The notes beneath the pieces are model-generated. The model saw only the letters and a list, made by a program, of their open reading frames with translations. It searched no databases and was not told the origin of the DNA. Shown here in pieces: positions 4,870-48,034 of a DNA stretch of 64,000 nt (its first letter is position 1; each line of letters starts with the position of its first letter). The DNA is from Fodinibius salsisoli (lineage in GTDB: Bacteria > Bacteroidota > Rhodothermia > Balneolales > Balneolaceae). The stretch spans positions 186,001 through 250,000 of the forward strand of contig NZ_JAGGJA010000007.1 in the NCBI RefSeq assembly GCF_026229185.1. The letters are read 5' to 3'. The translations under genes were made by a program, and so were the position numbers.

Positions 4870-6420
4870 TTAGACAACCAAAATTACCAATAAGGTATAT
4901 AACAGGCCTCCCAATCCTGCAGCCGTTAATGCCAGGGGAATTTGAGTATACACGTGATCCATCAGATCACAACCGGTAGCCAGTGAAGATAAAATCGTAG
5001 TATCTGAGATAGGCGAACATTGATCTCCAAATACACTGCCGCCTACTACCGCACCGAAGCAAAGAGTGATAAAAAACTCATCCGGTAGTACGGCCCATGC
5101 CAGGGGCATGGCTACCGGAAACACAACGGCGTAGGTGCCCCATGAAGTGCCTGCCGAAAAGGCGATAAGCATACACAATCCCATCAAAATGGCTGGTAAG
5201 GCTGCCGGAGCAATAGTATCCCCTACTAAATCAACCACATATTCCGCGGTCCCTACTGCCTCGGCAACTTCTTTGAGAGAGACCGCCAGTGCCAGGATAA
5301 TAGCTCCAATCGTGACGCCCTTACAACCATCGACAAATCCATCCATGACCGTCTGCAAGTCCATACCCTTAGCCAGAGCCACAAACATACCGGTTAATAC
5401 TGCCAGCACAAAGGCTTCAGCAATCAATAGCGTAGGATCTTCGGTATTGCCCATCACATAGGCGGTATATCCATAAGGAATAATAGCCACGCCTAATAAA
5501 GTACCAATGGGACCAAAAAAATCGACCAGCCCGGAGTTGTAATCCTCCGGAACATCCACTTCCGTCAGTTCGGAGGAAGCCATAGGCTGGGCGTCAGCTC
5601 GGTCCAGGCTACCCTCGGTTCGGGCACGACTGATAGCCTCACGCATTTTCTTGCCGGGAATCCAGGGAAGCAGCTCCCATGCAAACAGGAGCGTTATCAG
5701 CAAAGCAAAAATGCCATAAAAATTAAAGGGTAAGGCCTGGATAAAAAAGGCCACGCCATCCTGCGCCGTCTCAAATAACGGAATAGTGCCCACTACAAGT
5801 CCGGCGATATATAATGGCCACACGTTAAACGGGATGACCGTAGCTGCCGGCGAGGCGGTGGAGTCGACCATGTAGGAGAGCTCTTCATGCGAAACTTTGT
5901 GCTTATCGGCAATTGGACGCACCGTCGCACCCGTCAAGACGGTACTGATCGTACCTCCCTGGTGAAAGACCAGCCCCATCATCCAGGTAAAAAACTTAGC
6001 ACTTTTTCTTCCACGTACCATCCGTTCACTGGCCCAGTGTGCAAACTTCTCGGCGCCACCCGTTCGTGTCCAGATGCCAATAAGTCCGCCCAGTGACCAG
6101 AGGTAGACCAATAAAATAAGAGCAAAACTTTCGGTCCCAATGGAAGGGATCAAAAACTCCTGCACTACATTCAATTTCCCGGATATAACGCCTCCTAACG
6201 CTATGCCTACAAACAGGGAGCTTATCACTTCCCGTGTCCAGAAAGCTAAACCGATGGCAACCAGCGGCGGAGCTACTGACCACCAACCGTAATGGCCATT
6301 AAATTGGGGAAAATCACCGGCAAAGATAACCCCAAGTACAACCAGAAGAAGCGTAATTGCCAAATTGATCCAATTGCCTTTCGAAAATGAGTTAAGCCAT
6401 GATTGGTCAGTATGGGTCAT
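4870..6420 (-). CDS. NhaC-family Na+/H+ antiporter
   Basis: A 516-residue polytopic inner-membrane protein with roughly 11-13 hydrophobic helices, matching the NhaC branch of Na+/H+ antiporters. Recognisable family segments include the GxIxGxWTRTGGAEKFA region, the conserved loop GGTISTVLTGATVRPIADKHK, the DSTASPAATVIPFN motif, and the C-terminal CSPISDTTILSS segment. It exports Na+ in exchange for protons, and some relatives also move organic substrates. It is the last gene of the minus-strand run, 40 bases downstream of the DadA-like gene, so it may be co-transcribed. That leaves open a supporting role in ion balance for Na+-coupled uptake. There is no terminator between it and the convergent mscL, whose stop lies 9 bases away. 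Confidence 0.88.
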   Translation of the reverse strand: MTHTDQSWLNSFSKGNWINLAITLLLVVLGVIFAGDFPQFNGHYGWWSVAPPLVAIGLAFWTREVISSLFVGIALGGVISGKLNVVQEFLIPSIGTESFALILLVYLWSLGGLIGIWTRTGGAEKFAHWASERMVRGRKSAKFFTWMMGLVFHQGGTISTVLTGATVRPIADKHKVSHEELSYMVDSTASPAATVIPFNVWPLYIAGLVVGTIPLFETAQDGVAFFIQALPFNFYGIFALLITLLFAWELLPWIPGKKMREAISRARTEGSLDRADAQPMASSELTEVDVPEDYNSGLVDFFGPIGTLLGVAIIPYGYTAYVMGNTEDPTLLIAEAFVLAVLTGMFVALAKGMDLQTVMDGFVDGCKGVTIGAIILALAVSLKEVAEAVGTAEYVVDLVGDTIAPAALPAILMGLCMLIAFSAGTSWGTYAVVFPVAMPLAWAVLPDEFFITLCFGAVVGGSVFGDQCSPISDTTILSSLATGCDLMDHVYTQIPLALTAAGLGGLLYTLLVILVV

Positions 6421-22523: not shown

Positions 22524-22712
22524 TTAGTCTGCTATTCTTTGTATCTTCTGTATCCAAAAATGATCAACCGTTACAGGCTTTTCTAACGAAAAGTCCTAAA
22601 GTGTAAAGGTAATCACTTCGTAGCTCAGTTGAAAAGTTTTTGTGCAACGCAAGAGCCTCCTTCTAAAAAGTGGCTCAAAGCACCTTATATTAATTACCTG
22701 AAAGACAGATAC

Positions 22713-25700
22713 ATGAATTTCGATCAAATTAAGGATCTCCTGCAAGATCGTATCCTCATTTTGGATGGCGCGATGGGCACGATGATCCAATCTCACAATC
22801 TTACAGAAGACGACTACCGGGGCAAGCAGTTCCAAGACTATCATACCGACCTGCAGGGCAACAACGACCTTCTCAGTATCACACAGCCCGATCTTATTAA
22901 AGGTATTCACCGCTCCTTTCTGGAAGCGGGCTCCGACATCATTGAAACTAATACGTTTAACAGTACCTCCATTTCCCAGGCGGATTATGACATGGCGGAT
23001 CTGGCCTACGATCTAAATGTGGCCGCTGCCCGGAATGCGCGAGAAGTGGCCGATGAGGTTACCAAACAAAATCCGGACAAACCCCGATTAGTGGCCGGAG
23101 CCGTTGGGCCCACCAATAAAACACTGTCGCTCTCTCCCGATGTGGAAGACCCCGGTTACCGTGCTATCACCTTCGATCAGCTCAAAAAATCGTACCGCGA
23201 ACAAATTCGGGGCCTGGCCGATGGCGGCGTGGATATGCTGCTGGTAGAAACCATTTTTGATACGCTGAATGCCAAGGCAGCCATCTATGCGATTCACAAA
23301 CATGCCGAAGAGACCGGCCAGGAACTGCCGGTCATGATCTCTGGTACCATTGTAGATCAAAGTGGACGTACCCTCTCGGGGCAGACGACCGAAGCCTTCT
23401 GGATTTCTATATCTCATACCAAGAATCTGCTCAGCGTTGGACTGAACTGTTCGCTGGGATCCGATCAAATGCGTCCATATATTGAAGAACTGGCACGTAT
23501 TGCGGATTGCCATACCAGTCTCTATCCCAATGCCGGACTGCCCGATGAGATGGGCGAATACAACGAGACGCCCGAATTTATGGCGGATCAATTGCGTGAC
23601 TATGCAGAATCTGATTTTGTAAATCTTGTAGGAGGTTGCTGTGGTACTACCCCAAAGCATATTAAAGCAATTGCCGAAGCAGCGAAGCAATGTGCGCCAC
23701 GACAAATCCCAGAACAAAAACCTTATTTAAGACTCAGCGGACTCGAACCATTGGTCGTCCGTCCCGATACCAACTTTGTGAATATCGGTGAACGTACCAA
23801 CGTAATGGGCTCCCGCAAATTTAAGCGGCTTATCAAGAATGAGGAGTTCGAGGAAGCCCTTTCGGTAGCGCGCCAGCAGGTAGAAAACGGTGCCCAGATT
23901 ATTGACATCAACATGGATGAGGGCATGCTGGATTCCCAAGAAGTGATGGTAAATTTCCTGCAGCTGCTGGCTGCAGAGCCCGACATTTCGCGCGTGCCCA
24001 TCATGATTGACTCTTCCAAGTGGTCCGTCTTGAAAGCAGGACTGAAAGCAGCCCAGGGCAAGTGTGTGGTTAACTCCATCAGCTTAAAAGAAGGCGAAGA
24101 GCAGTTTAAAGAACAAGCTCGTGAAATCCTCAACTTTGGGGGTGCTGTCGTCATCATGGGTTTTGATGAGCAAGGGCAAGCCGACAGCTATGATCGGCGC
24201 ATCGAAATTGCGGAACGGGCCTACAACATCCTTACTGAAGAAGTGGGTTTTGCGCCACAGGATATCATCATGGATCCCAACATCCTGACGGTGGCCACCG
24301 GTATTGAAGCACACAACAATTATGCCGTTGACTTTATTGAGGCTACCCGATGGATTAAACAAAACCTGCCGATGGCTAAAGTCAGCGGTGGACTTAGTAA
24401 CATTTCATTTTCTTTCCGTGGTAATAACAAAGTGCGCGAAGCCATGCACGCGGCTTTTCTCTACCACGCCATCCAAGCCGGCCTTGATATGGCGATCGTA
24501 AATGCAGGGCAGCTGGAAGTCTACGAGGAGATACCCGATAAACTGCGCGATCTTGTGGAAGATGTGCTCCTTAACCGACGCGATGATGCTACGGAACGCT
24601 TGGTGGATTATGCCGAAGAAATCAAAGGTGAAGACACTGAGACGGAAGAAAAAATCCAAGAATGGCGCCAGGAATCTGTCGAAGAACGTATTAAACACGC
24701 GCTGGTGAAAGGCATCGTCGATCATATTGTGGATGATGTGGAAGAAGCCCGACAGAAATACAATCAACCTATTGAAGTTATTGAAGGTCCCATGATGTCG
24801 GGTATGGATGTCGTCGGGGACCTCTTTGGATCGGGCAAGATGTTCCTTCCACAGGTGGTAAAAAGTGCCCGCGTGATGAAAAAAGGAGTGGCCCACCTCA
24901 TCCCCTTTATTGAAGAGGAGAAGGAAAAGAACCAAAATAGTAAACCAAAGGCCAAAGTACTGCTGGCTACTGTCAAAGGAGATGTTCATGACATCGGTAA
25001 AAATATTGTGGCCGTCGTGTTGCGCTGCAACAACTTTGATGTCATTGACCTGGGCGTGATGGTTCCGGCAGATAAAATTTTGGAGGAAGCCCGACAAAAC
25101 AATGTGGATATTATTGGCCTCAGTGGGCTCATCACTCCCTCTCTGGATGAGATGGTGCATGTAGCCAAGGAATTGAAACGTGAAGAATTTCAGCAGCCCC
25201 TGCTTATCGGAGGCGCCACAACCTCGCGCATGCATACCGCTGTAAAGATAGAACCAAACTACAATCGGCCGGTGGTGCACGTACTGGATGCCTCGCGAAG
25301 TGTATCCGTGACGGGTAACCTTGTTTCCCAGACACTGCGCGAGGAGTTCGTTAAGAAAAAGAAAAACGAATACTTAAAACTCCGGAAACAGCACGAAAGT
25401 CGGTCCAATCGCAAGACCTATCTTTCGCTGGAAGAGGCTCGCGCCAATGCCTCCGATATTGACTGGTCAGCCACGGAAGTTAAAAAGCCGGCCCAGTTAG
25501 GCCGGCAGGTTTTTGATAACTATCCGCTGGAGGAAATCCGCAATTACATAGACTGGGGACCGTTTTTCATTGCCTGGCAGATGAAGGGCAGCTTTCCCGC
25601 CGTACTCGAGGATGAAAAGTATGGCGAAGAAGCACGTAAACTTTTTGACGATGCCAATGCGCTTCTGGACAAAATTATCGACCAGAAGTTACTAAAAGCG

Positions 25701-26399
25701 CGGGCGGTACTGGGACTTTATCCCGCGAATGCTGTCGGTGATGATGTTGAACTATATACCGACGAGAGCCGATCGGAAGTGTTGACGACCTTCCATACTC
25801 TTCGTCAGCAGGCCCAGAAACGACGCGGACAGCCAAATAAGGCACTCGCTGATTTTGTAGCTCCCAAAGAAACGGGCATTGCCGACTATATGGGCGGCTT
25901 TGCCGTGACCTGCGGCATTGGCGCCCCAGAGCTTGTGAAACAATTTGAAGAGGACCATGACGATTATAATGCGATTCTCACCAAAGCACTGGCCGACCGA
26001 CTGGCCGAAGCGTTTACAGAACTTCTTCACGAAAAAGTACGAAAAGATATCTGGGGCTATGCACCGGAGGAAGATTTCGATAACGAAGCACTGATTCGCG
26101 AAAAGTATACTGGTATTCGTCCGGCTCCCGGCTACCCGGCCCAGCCCGACCATACCGAAAAACGCATTCTGTTTGATCTCCTTGATGCCAAAGAGCAAGC
26201 TGGTATCCATCTCACCGAACACTACGCCATGCATCCGGCTGCTTCGGTTAGTGGACTCTATTTTTCCCATCCCCAATCTGATTATTTTAATGTGGGTAAC
26301 TTCAAAAAAGACCAAATTGAAGACTATGCCCGGCGCAAAGGCATGAGTGTGGAAGAAATAGAGCGTTGGTTAAGCTCTAACCTGAGTTATGAACCGTAG
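22713..26399 (+). CDS. metH: Methionine synthase, cobalamin-dependent
   Basis: A 1228-residue modular enzyme that transfers the methyl group of methyl-folate to homocysteine via cobalamin. Modules in order: homocysteine-binding barrel with zinc cysteines (GLNCSLGS near 244, GGCCGTT near 307), pterin-binding barrel ([14 protein letters not shown] near 353), cobalamin cap, B12 Rossmann domain with the ligand motif DVHDIGKN (His near 759), and the C-terminal AdoMet reactivation domain with [15 protein letters not shown] near 1136. I chose the ATG at 22713 because the protein then matches the full-length family (E. coli ~1227); the frame extends 28 codons upstream without similarity. The gene is full length with no lesion. 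Confidence 0.97.
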
Positions 26400-26445
26400 T
26401 TTTAACTATAACTGGGCTTTCAGTCAGTAGTGATTATATTTAATG

Positions 26446-26472
26446 GTTACTAAGTTTCAAAAGTTTAGTAAT
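26446..26472. repeat. Palindrome at the 5' break of the RAYT relic
   Basis: Arms GTTACTAA and TTAGTAAT (7 Watson-Crick pairs plus a terminal G-T) surround a short interior containing AGTTTCAAAAGTTT. It lies exactly where the transposase-like reading frame loses similarity to its family. Confidence 0.6.
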
Positions 26473-26473
26473 C

Positions 26474-27013
26474 ATTATAAAACTATTTATTAAGGATTAG
26501 GACTATCATTACTTCCCTAGCAAATGGAACCAATATTTGGATGCTTATCTCGATGTTTGGGCTTACTGTTTAATACCAAATCATTTCCATTTTCTTGTTC
26601 AGATCAAAAACAAAAAAGAATTATCGAATGCAGACCTGACAGGTTTACAAAACCTGTCAGGTCTTATTTCTAAAAAATTTAGTAACTTCTTCAATTCATA
26701 CACAAAGTCGGTTAATAAAAAATACAGCCGTCATGGTAGCTTATTTCAAAAGCCTTTTAAGAGAGTAAAAGTTGAGTCAAAACAATATCTTCAGCACCTG
26801 ATCCACTATATCCATCATAATCCAATTCATCATCATCTGGCCGAATCTTATCTGGATTGGAAATATTCATCCTATTCAGCTATTCTAACCCAACATTCAA
26901 CTAATATTGAAAAACAGAAGGTATTGAAGCTATACCAAGGCAGGGACAACTTTATATCTCATCATCAAACGATGAAAAACTATAACAAAATAAGTCATCT
27001 TCTTATTGATTAG
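26474..27013 (+). pseudogene. REP-associated tyrosine transposase (RAYT, IS200-like Y1), truncated and interrupted
   Basis: The frame reads KLFIKD, a TAG at 26498-26500, then DYHYFPSKWNQYLDAYLDVW and the HUH motif as NHFHFLVQIK, SYTKSVNKKYSRHGSLFQKPF, and the Tyr-containing YLQHLIHYIHHNPIHH, ending in a normal C-terminus. This is the single-strand transposase domain of RAYTs, which act on REP palindromes. Two lesions are seen: the first ~20-25 residues (the usual YHIYNRG start) are missing, and one in-frame stop interrupts the early part. A start at a TTG (26537) would still give 158 residues but lacks the N-terminal strand, so I call it a pseudogene. A 33-bp perfect palindrome is embedded in frame at 26632-26664. 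Confidence 0.8.
26632..26664. repeat. Perfect palindrome embedded in the RAYT reading frame
   Basis: Two 15-bp arms, AGACCTGACAGGTTT and its exact complement, with a 3-nt loop ACA. The total length of 33 bp is a multiple of three, so the frame is kept and it is read as DLTGLQNLSGL between NA and IS. Confidence 0.95.
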
Positions 27014-27020
27014 ACACATT

Positions 27021-27059
27021 ATAAGACATGCCAAGTTTTGAAAACTTGGCATGTCTTAT
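27021..27059. repeat. Perfect 39-bp palindrome after the RAYT relic
   Basis: Arms of 19 bp (starting ATAAGACATGCC and ending AAGTTTT) with a single-base loop G. It begins 8 bases after the relic's stop and ends 18 bases before the convergent lipoprotein stop, so it could also terminate transcription in both directions. Its core (AAGTTTT/AAAACTT) resembles that of the other two palindromes here. Confidence 0.95.
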
Positions 27060-27076: not shown

Positions 27077-27601
27077 TTACTTCACTGGCTGTAATTCCTG
27101 AATACTCTTGGGGTCAACTATTCCCCTTACTTCCTGGAAGTTATTCAAATCAACATTGTTCGACTCCACAAATTCTACTGGTAAAATAGCCACCCAAAAA
27201 TCCTGATTCTGGGTGTAACCGGACCCAAGCGTACCGAGATCAATATTTCCCTGCAGAAAAAGCTGCACATCATCAACCGTATGGTCGAAGGAATATTGAA
27301 ATTGCCCATCATCAAAATAAATTGTTGCAGGAAGCTGCTGCCATATGCCGTTGCCAGTTTGTTCATCCTCTCCATACTTCCAGTAAACCACTATAATGTC
27401 GGAAGAAAACGCCTCAGCGCCATAATCAGAAAAGAAAAACTGCTGCGAATAATTATTATTCGCATTAAAAGTTGCTTCTACACCAAAGCCCTGACCAATG
27501 GGTCCCGAACCCCCGGGAGGTCCCTCTGGCCCGACTGGCCCCCGTTCTCCCTGACAACCAACAAATAAAAGTACGGAAAATATAAGGCTAAGGTATTTCA
27601 T
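27077..27601 (-). CDS. Lipoprotein with a short collagen-like Gly-X-Y segment
   Basis: A 174-residue lipoprotein of unknown function. The signal ends at FVGC (Cys16). Directly after comes a collagen-like run, GERGPVGPEGPPGGSGPIG, about six Gly-X-Y triplets, then a soluble domain of ~130 residues rich in Asn, Gln and aromatic residues with no family I recognise. Small collagen-like lipoproteins of this build occur in Bacteroidota. It stands alone, convergent with the RAYT relic. Confidence 0.8.
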   Translation of the reverse strand: MKYLSLIFSVLLFVGCQGERGPVGPEGPPGGSGPIGQGFGVEATFNANNNYSQQFFFSDYGAEAFSSDIIVVYWKYGEDEQTGNGIWQQLPATIYFDDGQFQYSFDHTVDDVQLFLQGNIDLGTLGSGYTQNQDFWVAILPVEFVESNNVDLNNFQEVRGIVDPKSIQELQPVK

Positions 27602-47717: not shown

Positions 47718-47774
47718 TGAATTAAGACAAGACCTGCCAATTCTTAGTAATCTTGCGGATATGGTTATAGCTCA

Positions 47775-47822
47775 GAGGGAGTTATACTCCCGTTCTTCTG
47801 TAGTCGGGAGTGCAACTCCCTC
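47775..47822. repeat. Long hairpin, 18-bp arms
   Basis: Arms GAGGGAGTTATACTCCCG (47775-47792) and CGGGAGTGCAACTCCCTC (47805-47822) pair with only two mismatched positions; loop 12 nt. Confidence 0.85.
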
Positions 47823-47969
47823 GGAGCTTGGGTTCCTCCGGCCTCACGAATCATGTGTGTAGACTCGAATAATGATTAGGATCATTTCAGGTGCTTTAAA
47901 CTATTCCAAGTTGCAAACTTGAAACAGTAGTGAAAAAAGATCATCCATAGCGCCTATGCATGGCATTTC

Positions 47970-48034
47970 ATACTCATCGGATGAGTATTAGAAAATAATT
48001 AAAGGATGAAGCAGAATCACTCATCCGATGAGTG
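47970..48034. repeat. Pair of related palindromes (ACTCATCSGATGAGT)
   Basis: ATACTCATCGGATGAGTAT at 47970-47988 and CACTCATCCGATGAGTG at 48018-48034 share the ACTCAT/ATGAGT arms around a CGG or CCG centre. Confidence 0.85.

Follow-up and report, generated by a model that had tools for sequence, protein, structure and literature searches.

How does a perfect DNA palindrome come to be translated, in frame, in the middle of a transposase gene, and is it a lasting part of that gene or a recent arrival? The question is raised by a stretch of 64,000 nucleotides (nt) from Fodinibius salsisoli (contig NZ_JAGGJA010000007.1, positions 186,001 to 250,000; hereafter, the window). It contains a relic of a gene for a REP-associated tyrosine transposase (RAYT; REP, repetitive extragenic palindrome), with one palindrome at its 5′ break, one inside its reading frame and one just after its stop codon. 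The original prediction, made from the letters of the sequence, proposed two origins for the in-frame copy: insertion of a REP-like unit without loss of frame, or a built-in regulatory or target site. Our comparison with related genes suggests that the palindrome is a regular component of the gene, slowly exchanged, and no chance passenger. It favours upkeep as a cis element, with half-units exchanged occasionally, over a recent insertion out of a resident REP family. To the full proposal, that the relic is a decayed member of a RAYT lineage whose genes regularly include such a palindrome, maintained as a cis element with occasional exchange of half-units, we assign about an even chance.

The relic gene and its three palindromes

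The elements in question are the following.

26441..26477, no strand assigned: degenerate 5′ palindrome at the gene break, occupying the place of the orthologues' N-terminal codons (three-way DNA alignment)
26498..26500, plus strand: in-frame TAG stop, inside a stretch still homologous to intact RAYTs (translation, comparison with the orthologous loci L125 and L128)
26501..27013, plus strand: remaining frame of the RAYT-like gene (matches to NF047646 and PF01797)
26632..26664, no strand assigned: in-frame palindrome, type A, made of two inverted 15-nt half-units (26632-26646 and 26650-26664) and a 3-nt spacer
27021..27059, no strand assigned: 3′ palindrome, type ACATGCCAAG, 8 nt past the stop codon; the same type flanks the orthologous gene in L125

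The three palindromes have the positions and arms originally described. The in-frame palindrome (33 bp) reads AGACCTGACAGGTTT-ACA-AAACCTGTCAGGTCT, with perfect 15-bp arms around a 3-nt loop, and is translated as A-DLTGLQNLSGL. The 3′ palindrome (39 bp) has perfect 19-bp arms and a 1-nt loop. The 5′ palindrome forms 12 of 13 pairs around an 11-nt loop; as RNA it gives a 17-bp stem that includes G·U pairs. All three had also been said to share one build with a GTTT/AAAC-type core. The common build stands, and so does the core for the in-frame and 3′ palindromes, but it applies only in part to the 5′ palindrome, whose right arm is AAGTTT and not AAACTT. Relative to shuffled sequences, the in-frame, 3′ and 5′ palindromes fold with z values of -7.3, -7.5 and -6.4 (-6.35 for the last) as RNA, and of -7.9, -8.6 and -4.1 as DNA. 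An inverted repeat as good as the weakest of the three arose in 0 of 60 Markov simulations of the 900-nt region. We considered whether the 5′ palindrome might be the usual upstream palindrome of such genes and rejected this, because that of the orthologues precedes the start codon and that of the window sits at the deletion.

The gene itself is a relic, as proposed. Compared with L125 and L128 in a three-way DNA alignment, its start and N-terminal codons are missing at the 5′ palindrome, and the in-frame TAG follows. The remaining frame, downstream of metH, has 170 codons after that TAG, an earliest possible start at a TTG (26537) and a TAG stop at 27011-27013; it retains the HuH motif NHFH, the tyrosine motif YIHHNP and an SSY tail. 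The truncated open reading frame (ORF) matches NCBIfam NF047646 with E 3.6e-15 and 56.1 bits, below the cut-off of 80, and Pfam PF01797 with E 8e-4 and 19.9 bits, below the cut-off of 23. Seven intact relatives score 51-71 bits against NF047646. The lineage thus lies under the curated line, yet this is its only family match. Because the window gene is broken, its palindromes are remnants, and nothing there need act now.

Neither palindrome that was counted appears to belong to a resident REP family. In the host genome (4.85 Mb in 43 contigs) the in-frame and 3′ palindromes each have 1 exact copy; with up to 3 mismatches allowed, the former is found at 3 places and the latter at 1. The two diverged relatives of the in-frame palindrome are themselves palindromes outside long reading frames (1501-1531 of L194 and 1501-1531 of L195, on contigs C11 and C1), with the sequences CCTGCCAGG and, imperfect, CCTGACAGG. 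With so few copies, absence from the rest of the genome, which the original prediction had named as evidence against it, is largely what we find as regards a resident family, and a high-copy REP family in this host was dropped from consideration.

A linker site occupied among relatives

To place the in-frame palindrome among related genes, we drew on several searches. A similarity search gave 129 matches, reduced to 105 proteins by removing those below 75 bits and identical proteins, and to 102 by removing genes shorter than 160 amino acids. A scan of named genomes contributed 80 loci, chosen as the best among 393 confirmed places; they come from Balneolaceae, Fulvivirga, Algoriphagus, Prolixibacter, other Bacteroidota and metagenome-assembled genomes of Chloroflexi. 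A search of the family contributed 30 loci, the best matches only; at E 1e-15 a RAYT gene was found in 48 of 92 family genomes. The family group of the window, f1, has Gracilimonas and Balneola relatives, and the proteins of L026 and L027 are those of its loci L109 and L120. Finally, the 28 bases in the arms of the in-frame palindrome, searched as an exact pattern, were present in 11 of 394 genomes of the phylum, and a reversed control pattern in 0. At two loci fetched by this last search, L014 and L018, the palindrome again lies within a RAYT-like gene, at the same protein position.

The site is a linker that follows the HuH strand and leads into the next helix. A palindrome occupies it in 63 of the 102 relatives, with perfect arms in 48, and the same linker is used in loci from Bacteroidota to Chloroflexi. 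Another nine relatives have a linker palindrome with arms of 13-19 nt and loops of 14-22 nt, so that 72/102 are occupied when wider loops are admitted; seven of these nine, mostly Cytophagales-like loci, have type A arms and a 16-nt loop. In a Cytophagales-like clade (L041, L045, L047, L048, L050, L051 and L055) the half-units stand 16 nt apart, not 3, each half being AAGACCT-GAC-AGGTCTT or its inverse. The remaining thirty of the 102 have no linker palindrome, and they include one clade, L131 and L133-L135, that is wholly without. A palindrome downstream of the gene, between -20 and 35 nt from the stop, is present at 45 of the 102 loci. Since the linker is occupied in most relatives, a recent insertion peculiar to the window gene is not supported, and of the two origins first proposed the built-in site remains a live reading.

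In an AlphaFold model of the L014 protein (predicted local distance difference test, pLDDT, 93; predicted template modelling score, pTM, 0.88), the palindrome-coded residues 87-97 form the linker and the first turn of the next helix. This block is the least certain interior part of the model (pLDDT 75-85).

What recurs at the site is the DNA rather than the peptide. The site peptides of relatives include DLTGFQNLSGL, NLQGFENLGGL, DPQSFENFADL, KTSKVFEDLGGL, QTSQVSETCEV and FPKFRTLEKW, and the centre of the palindrome falls in one codon phase in 56/63 genes and in another in 7/63. Homologues encoding the same residues with unrelated DNA, which would have marked a normal protein segment, were looked for; in relatives the same residues go with the same DNA, and other palindromes go with other residues, at times in another frame. 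When homologous site peptides were recoded synonymously, the palindrome threshold was reached in only 3 of 1260 trials; stretches of the same length elsewhere in the same genes reached it in 12 of 491 cases. Where residues are identical, codons coincide more often within the palindrome than beyond it, whatever the divergence; at 55-65% identity, for instance, the values are 0.75 and 0.44 (the pairs are not mutually independent).

The unit has an inner architecture of its own. In types A, B and C the palindrome stops abruptly past the AGA or AAA that lies outside the core (in type C, AA), and no conserved flank follows. A GT[AG]G foot is rare (6/81 type A, 3/28 type B and 0/23 type C palindromes), and with the foot absent we dropped identity with a canonical GTAG REP. 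The left arm on its own forms a small dyad, RRACCT-nnn-AGGTTT, so the whole palindrome consists of two inverted 15-nt mini-hairpins. This inner dyad, scored as at least 5 of 6 inner pairs, is present in 16 of 23 distinct perfect site arms compared with 0.9% of shuffles, and the signal is confined to the axis with a 3-nt loop. Half-units also occur alone or in other combinations: in L033 a type C half precedes one of type A, in L036 a lone type B half stands ahead of a full type A palindrome, L104 has one extra half-unit, and L088 has a single one. A half-unit plus spacer is usually 18 nt and the usual palindrome 33 nt, so that exchanges keep the frame.

Two further arrangements were seen at these loci. 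In L088, at about 5655-5990, a tandem array lies 3′ of the Chloroflexi RAYT gene, with two alternating outer palindrome types and a period near 110 bp. In L017 of genome G108, at about 850-1170 on the minus strand, the RAYT gene is interrupted by a frame for a 93-residue GIY-YIG nuclease-like protein (Pfam E 4.5e-17), with CCTGTTAAAT and ATTTAACAGG at the two junctions, an inverted pair as judged by eye.

Exchange and possible maintenance of the in-gene palindrome

To follow the site within a single locus, we used the upstream neighbour of the window gene as a fixed marker.

22629..26399, plus strand: metH, B12-dependent methionine synthase (Pfam Met_synt_B12, S-methyl_trans, Pterin_bind and B12-binding domains), fixed in its place upstream and thus the marker of the orthologous locus

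In a quick tree, built without the linker and with many weakly supported forks, the window gene groups with L125, from another genus of the family, and L128, from the same genus (support 94). All three genes follow metH; ahead of their RAYT gene, L125 and L128 have the same metH 3′ end. Because the metH-adjacent locus is also occupied in another genus, vertical descent is the likelier history of the window RAYT, and horizontal arrival was dropped. Within this one locus the palindromes differ. L125 has identical upstream and downstream palindromes, of the ACACATGCCAGG type, alike even in a mismatch, and AGACTTGCCAAG inside, read as RLAKFQKLGKS. In L128 the flanks are of type AGACTTTCCAAG, and the gene contains what by eye resembles a decayed copy, read as LSKFCKSEKTE. 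Downstream of its gene the window retains the L125 kind of palindrome, yet inside it has type A, in a different frame. These differences imply that the in-gene palindrome was replaced or re-inserted within a vertically inherited locus. The insertion first proposed is not supported in a simple, recent form, but some insertion or exchange does occur, as seen in the different palindrome of L125, the decay in L128, and the hybrid and extra half-units elsewhere. On the same quick tree there are at least 39 changes of palindrome state among the 102 genes, and at least 26 changes of type among occupied sites.

In-gene and flanking palindromes tend to agree. Among 45 loci having another palindrome beside the gene, the in-gene core matches its own flanking palindrome at 0.9 or better in 28; with loci permuted, the mean is 8.5 and the maximum 18, and 0 of 5000 permutations reach 28. 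With a nearest relative at 50-65% identity (13 loci), agreement with the own flank averages 0.90, compared with 0.75 for the relative's internal palindrome; with one closer than 65% (31 loci), the averages are 0.84 and 0.89.

To ask whether a donor family is at hand, we counted exact cores in the 92 family genomes and scored only those, ten Balneolaceae genomes, in which the palindrome inside the gene carries an exact type A, B, C or E core. In 7 of the 10, that of the window among them, no exact-core copy exists besides the one in the gene (G000, G089, G211, G293, G187, G151 and G360). In G108 every exact-core copy belongs to the RAYT locus; one lies ahead of the N-terminal piece of the RAYT gene that is interrupted there. 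Flanking DNA is shared in two of these sole-copy pairs, over the full 3.4 kb in L123/L126 and only upstream in L114/L120 (L120 being the same as L027). Outside the palindrome, third codon positions agree at 0.46 and 0.47 in the respective pairs. In the two pairs together, codons at identical residues are identical in 18/20 cases inside the palindrome versus 120/243 outside (Fisher p 3e-4), and third positions match in 21/24 versus 167/360 (p 6e-5). This silent-site conservation argues for sequence-specific maintenance without a donor family, albeit from two pairs only.

Two other genomes have the palindrome in a different setting: G266 contains 7 exact-core type A copies, yet no RAYT profile match at 1e-15, and G022, outside the family, contains 14 copies. 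Palindrome families can therefore exist without a close relative of this RAYT.

A mechanism that would fit a maintained cis element is as follows. The two inverted mini-hairpins (RRACCT-nnn-AGGTTT, about 3 nt, inverted copy) stand in a surface linker, accompanied by similar palindromes at the gene start and just past the stop. The RAYT would recognise its own palindrome as a hairpin in single-stranded DNA, or in mRNA, and the in-gene copy would serve as a local cis site for self-recognition or autoregulation. Half-units may be swapped between the in-gene and flanking positions, through strand transfer by the RAYT or through template switching during replication. The function of the palindrome, including its cleavage by a lineage that lacks GTAG, is putative. 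We tentatively go one step further: the in-gene recognition palindrome might be a selected cis element that links enzyme and target in one gene, with their type changing together independently of dispersed REPs, and the dispersed palindromes of some genomes might be by-products of this pair.

Several observations weigh against such maintenance. As a predictor of the internal type, the own flank does better than the nearest relative in 18 of the 45 loci, worse in 13 and equally well in 14, so that part of the flank match is shared ancestry. In the window and in L018 the internal type is unlike the own flanks; L018 has type A inside and type C beside the gene. Some intact genes, those of L128, L122 and other relatives, have only a decayed palindrome at the site or none, so that it is not essential. 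Dispersed copies exist in 2 of the 10 scored genomes (5 elsewhere in G282 and 7 elsewhere in G171). The sole-copy counts are of exact-core matches, diverged copies having been sought in the window's own genome only. The silent-site result comes from just two gene pairs, a small sample, and one of them shares its upstream flank only.

The alternative that survives best, although we consider it rather unlikely, is that the palindromes are passive passengers: REP-like elements would land repeatedly near or in RAYT genes, where the enzyme works, and only those keeping the frame in a tolerant linker would survive, functionless and decaying. This comes close to the reading that Quentin 2018 gives for subclass 2.4 (PMC6006769). 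Half-unit hybrids, extra halves and other frames are what passengers would leave behind, as are the decayed copies in L128, the floppy linker of the model with its low pLDDT, and the dispersed type A-C copies of other genomes; but a donor with the exact core is missing in 7 of 10 genomes, the palindrome codons of the two shared-flank pairs are kept far beyond silent sites, and one linker is used from Bacteroidota to Chloroflexi loci.

Template switching by itself, in which replication across the hairpin copies arm onto arm and onto nearby palindromes with neither a role for the RAYT nor selection, we regard as improbable. Such copying keeps the arms of one palindrome alike, not the sequence between relatives, and L123/L126 and L114/L027 share their arm sequence at a third-position match of 0.46-0.47; it also leaves the fixed position in unrelated copies unexplained. 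The perfect arms in many genes are nevertheless as it predicts, and so are the L125 flanks with their common mismatch.

A function in RNA, with the three hairpins acting in the mRNA as a translation brake or in stability or termination, independently of RAYT binding, appears very improbable. The RNA folds are strong and the downstream palindrome keeps close to the stop in 45/102 loci, but no run of T follows the 3′ palindrome of the window, which is therefore not a typical intrinsic terminator, and neither the inner dyad nor the sharing of types with dispersed palindromes is explained. Scarcely credible, and dropped, is an ordinary protein segment whose coding DNA merely happens to be palindromic: the DLTGFxNLSGL reading does recur across many proteins, but unrelated residues from other palindromes and frames occupy the same site in other relatives, and synonymous recoding almost never yields a palindrome.

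A maintained cis element would bear on what RAYTs do for their hosts and on why they persist as single-copy genes. The presumed target lies inside coding sequence and is often the sole copy in its genome, so synonymous changes could destroy the palindrome and leave the protein untouched; natural enzyme-palindrome pairs of different types exist and are suited to swapping. The locus would also be an example of a palindrome kept at the DNA level through a reading frame, its half-units exchanged as modules.

Relation to known RAYT systems

In-gene palindromes of this kind are already known; the present lineage differs by the lack of a GT[AG]G foot, a replaced GTAG-reading tryptophan and a different tail. 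The closest solved structure to the L014 model is 4er8, E. coli TnpAREP with REP DNA (Foldseek E 8e-9, TMt 0.73). That enzyme binds and cleaves single-stranded REP, with GTAG being crucial (PMC8266576). In the 105 aligned proteins the NHxH and YIHxNP motifs dominate, and an SS tail motif is present in 95. The HuH and Y-x-x-x-N-P motifs, like the fold, agree with a class 2 Y1 HuH transposase (RAYT/TnpAREP). The column aligned with W94 of E. coli (W of the WQ motif; numbering from PMC6006769) holds F in 97 of the 105, which is in keeping with the missing GTAG. A separate structure alignment covered 61 sequences. An in-gene palindrome is not reported for E. coli TnpAREP in the sections of these sources that were covered.

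In-frame REPs in RAYT genes have been published for TnpAREP subclass 2.4, or RAYT group 4 (Quentin 2018, PMC6006769). As there, the in-frame palindromes lie in the beta3-alphaC region (here in 63/102 genes), and Bacteroidetes are among the hosts; a further resemblance is to the long and 'double foot' palindromes of that subclass, perhaps derived from inverted dimers. Unlike subclass 2.4 as tabulated in that paper, the present genes have no GT[AG]G foot, F for W of WQ, and an SS tail, which resembles that listed there for subclasses 2.1, 2.2 and 2.6. The automatic palindrome search described in the paper demanded a GTAG or GTGG foot, so palindromes without a foot, such as these, would escape it. 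Subclass 2.6, or RAYT group 5, shares Bacteroidetes hosts, a YIH[QN]NP-like motif, the SS tail and flanking 'atypical secondary structures' copied elsewhere in the genome; it differs by its listed insertion of 21 amino acids between alphaC and beta4, and no in-gene palindromes are reported for it in the parts of the paper covered (PMC6006769). By its motifs the lineage recalls subclasses 2.1 and 2.6; it may represent a branch not yet described or belong to one that has been.

In the open-access literature, with most subscription papers, preprints and the Quentin 2018 supplements outside coverage, no report was found of type turnover, flank match, sole-copy status or silent-site conservation of in-gene palindromes. 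Literature searches for the palindrome letters gave chance matches only, those for RAYT autoregulation nothing specific, and those for palindromes within such genes no relevant paper beyond the known ones.

A REPIN is a RAYT-associated REP doublet that forms a hairpin, and its two small hairpin units in inverted orientation resemble the half-units described here. Unlike those of a REPIN, however, these half-units are only 15 nt long, lack GTAG, are separated by a 3-nt spacer and occur in one or few copies per genome. The term appears in the abbreviation list of PMC6006769. With respect to the definition of a REP, the palindromes have the RAYT association and lack the high copy number in the host. 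They also resemble Rickettsia palindromic elements and REPs inside ORFs in being translated in frame within protein genes; those elements are scattered over many genes in the covered part of the source (PMC3733652), whereas here the recurrent in-frame place is one RAYT linker. Among 141 palindromes of five types, in a sample biased towards RAYTs, 55 lie in stop-to-stop frames of at least 150 amino acids, 33 of these being RAYT by motif and the other 22 mostly at frame edges.

Two other features of the window were noted. A small lipoprotein-like ORF on the minus strand (27077-27601) has a collagen-like GERGPVGPEGPPGGSGPIG stretch and gave no match in a Pfam search. Two more strong inverted repeats, near each other and of a different build, lie at 47769-47828 and 47972-48033.
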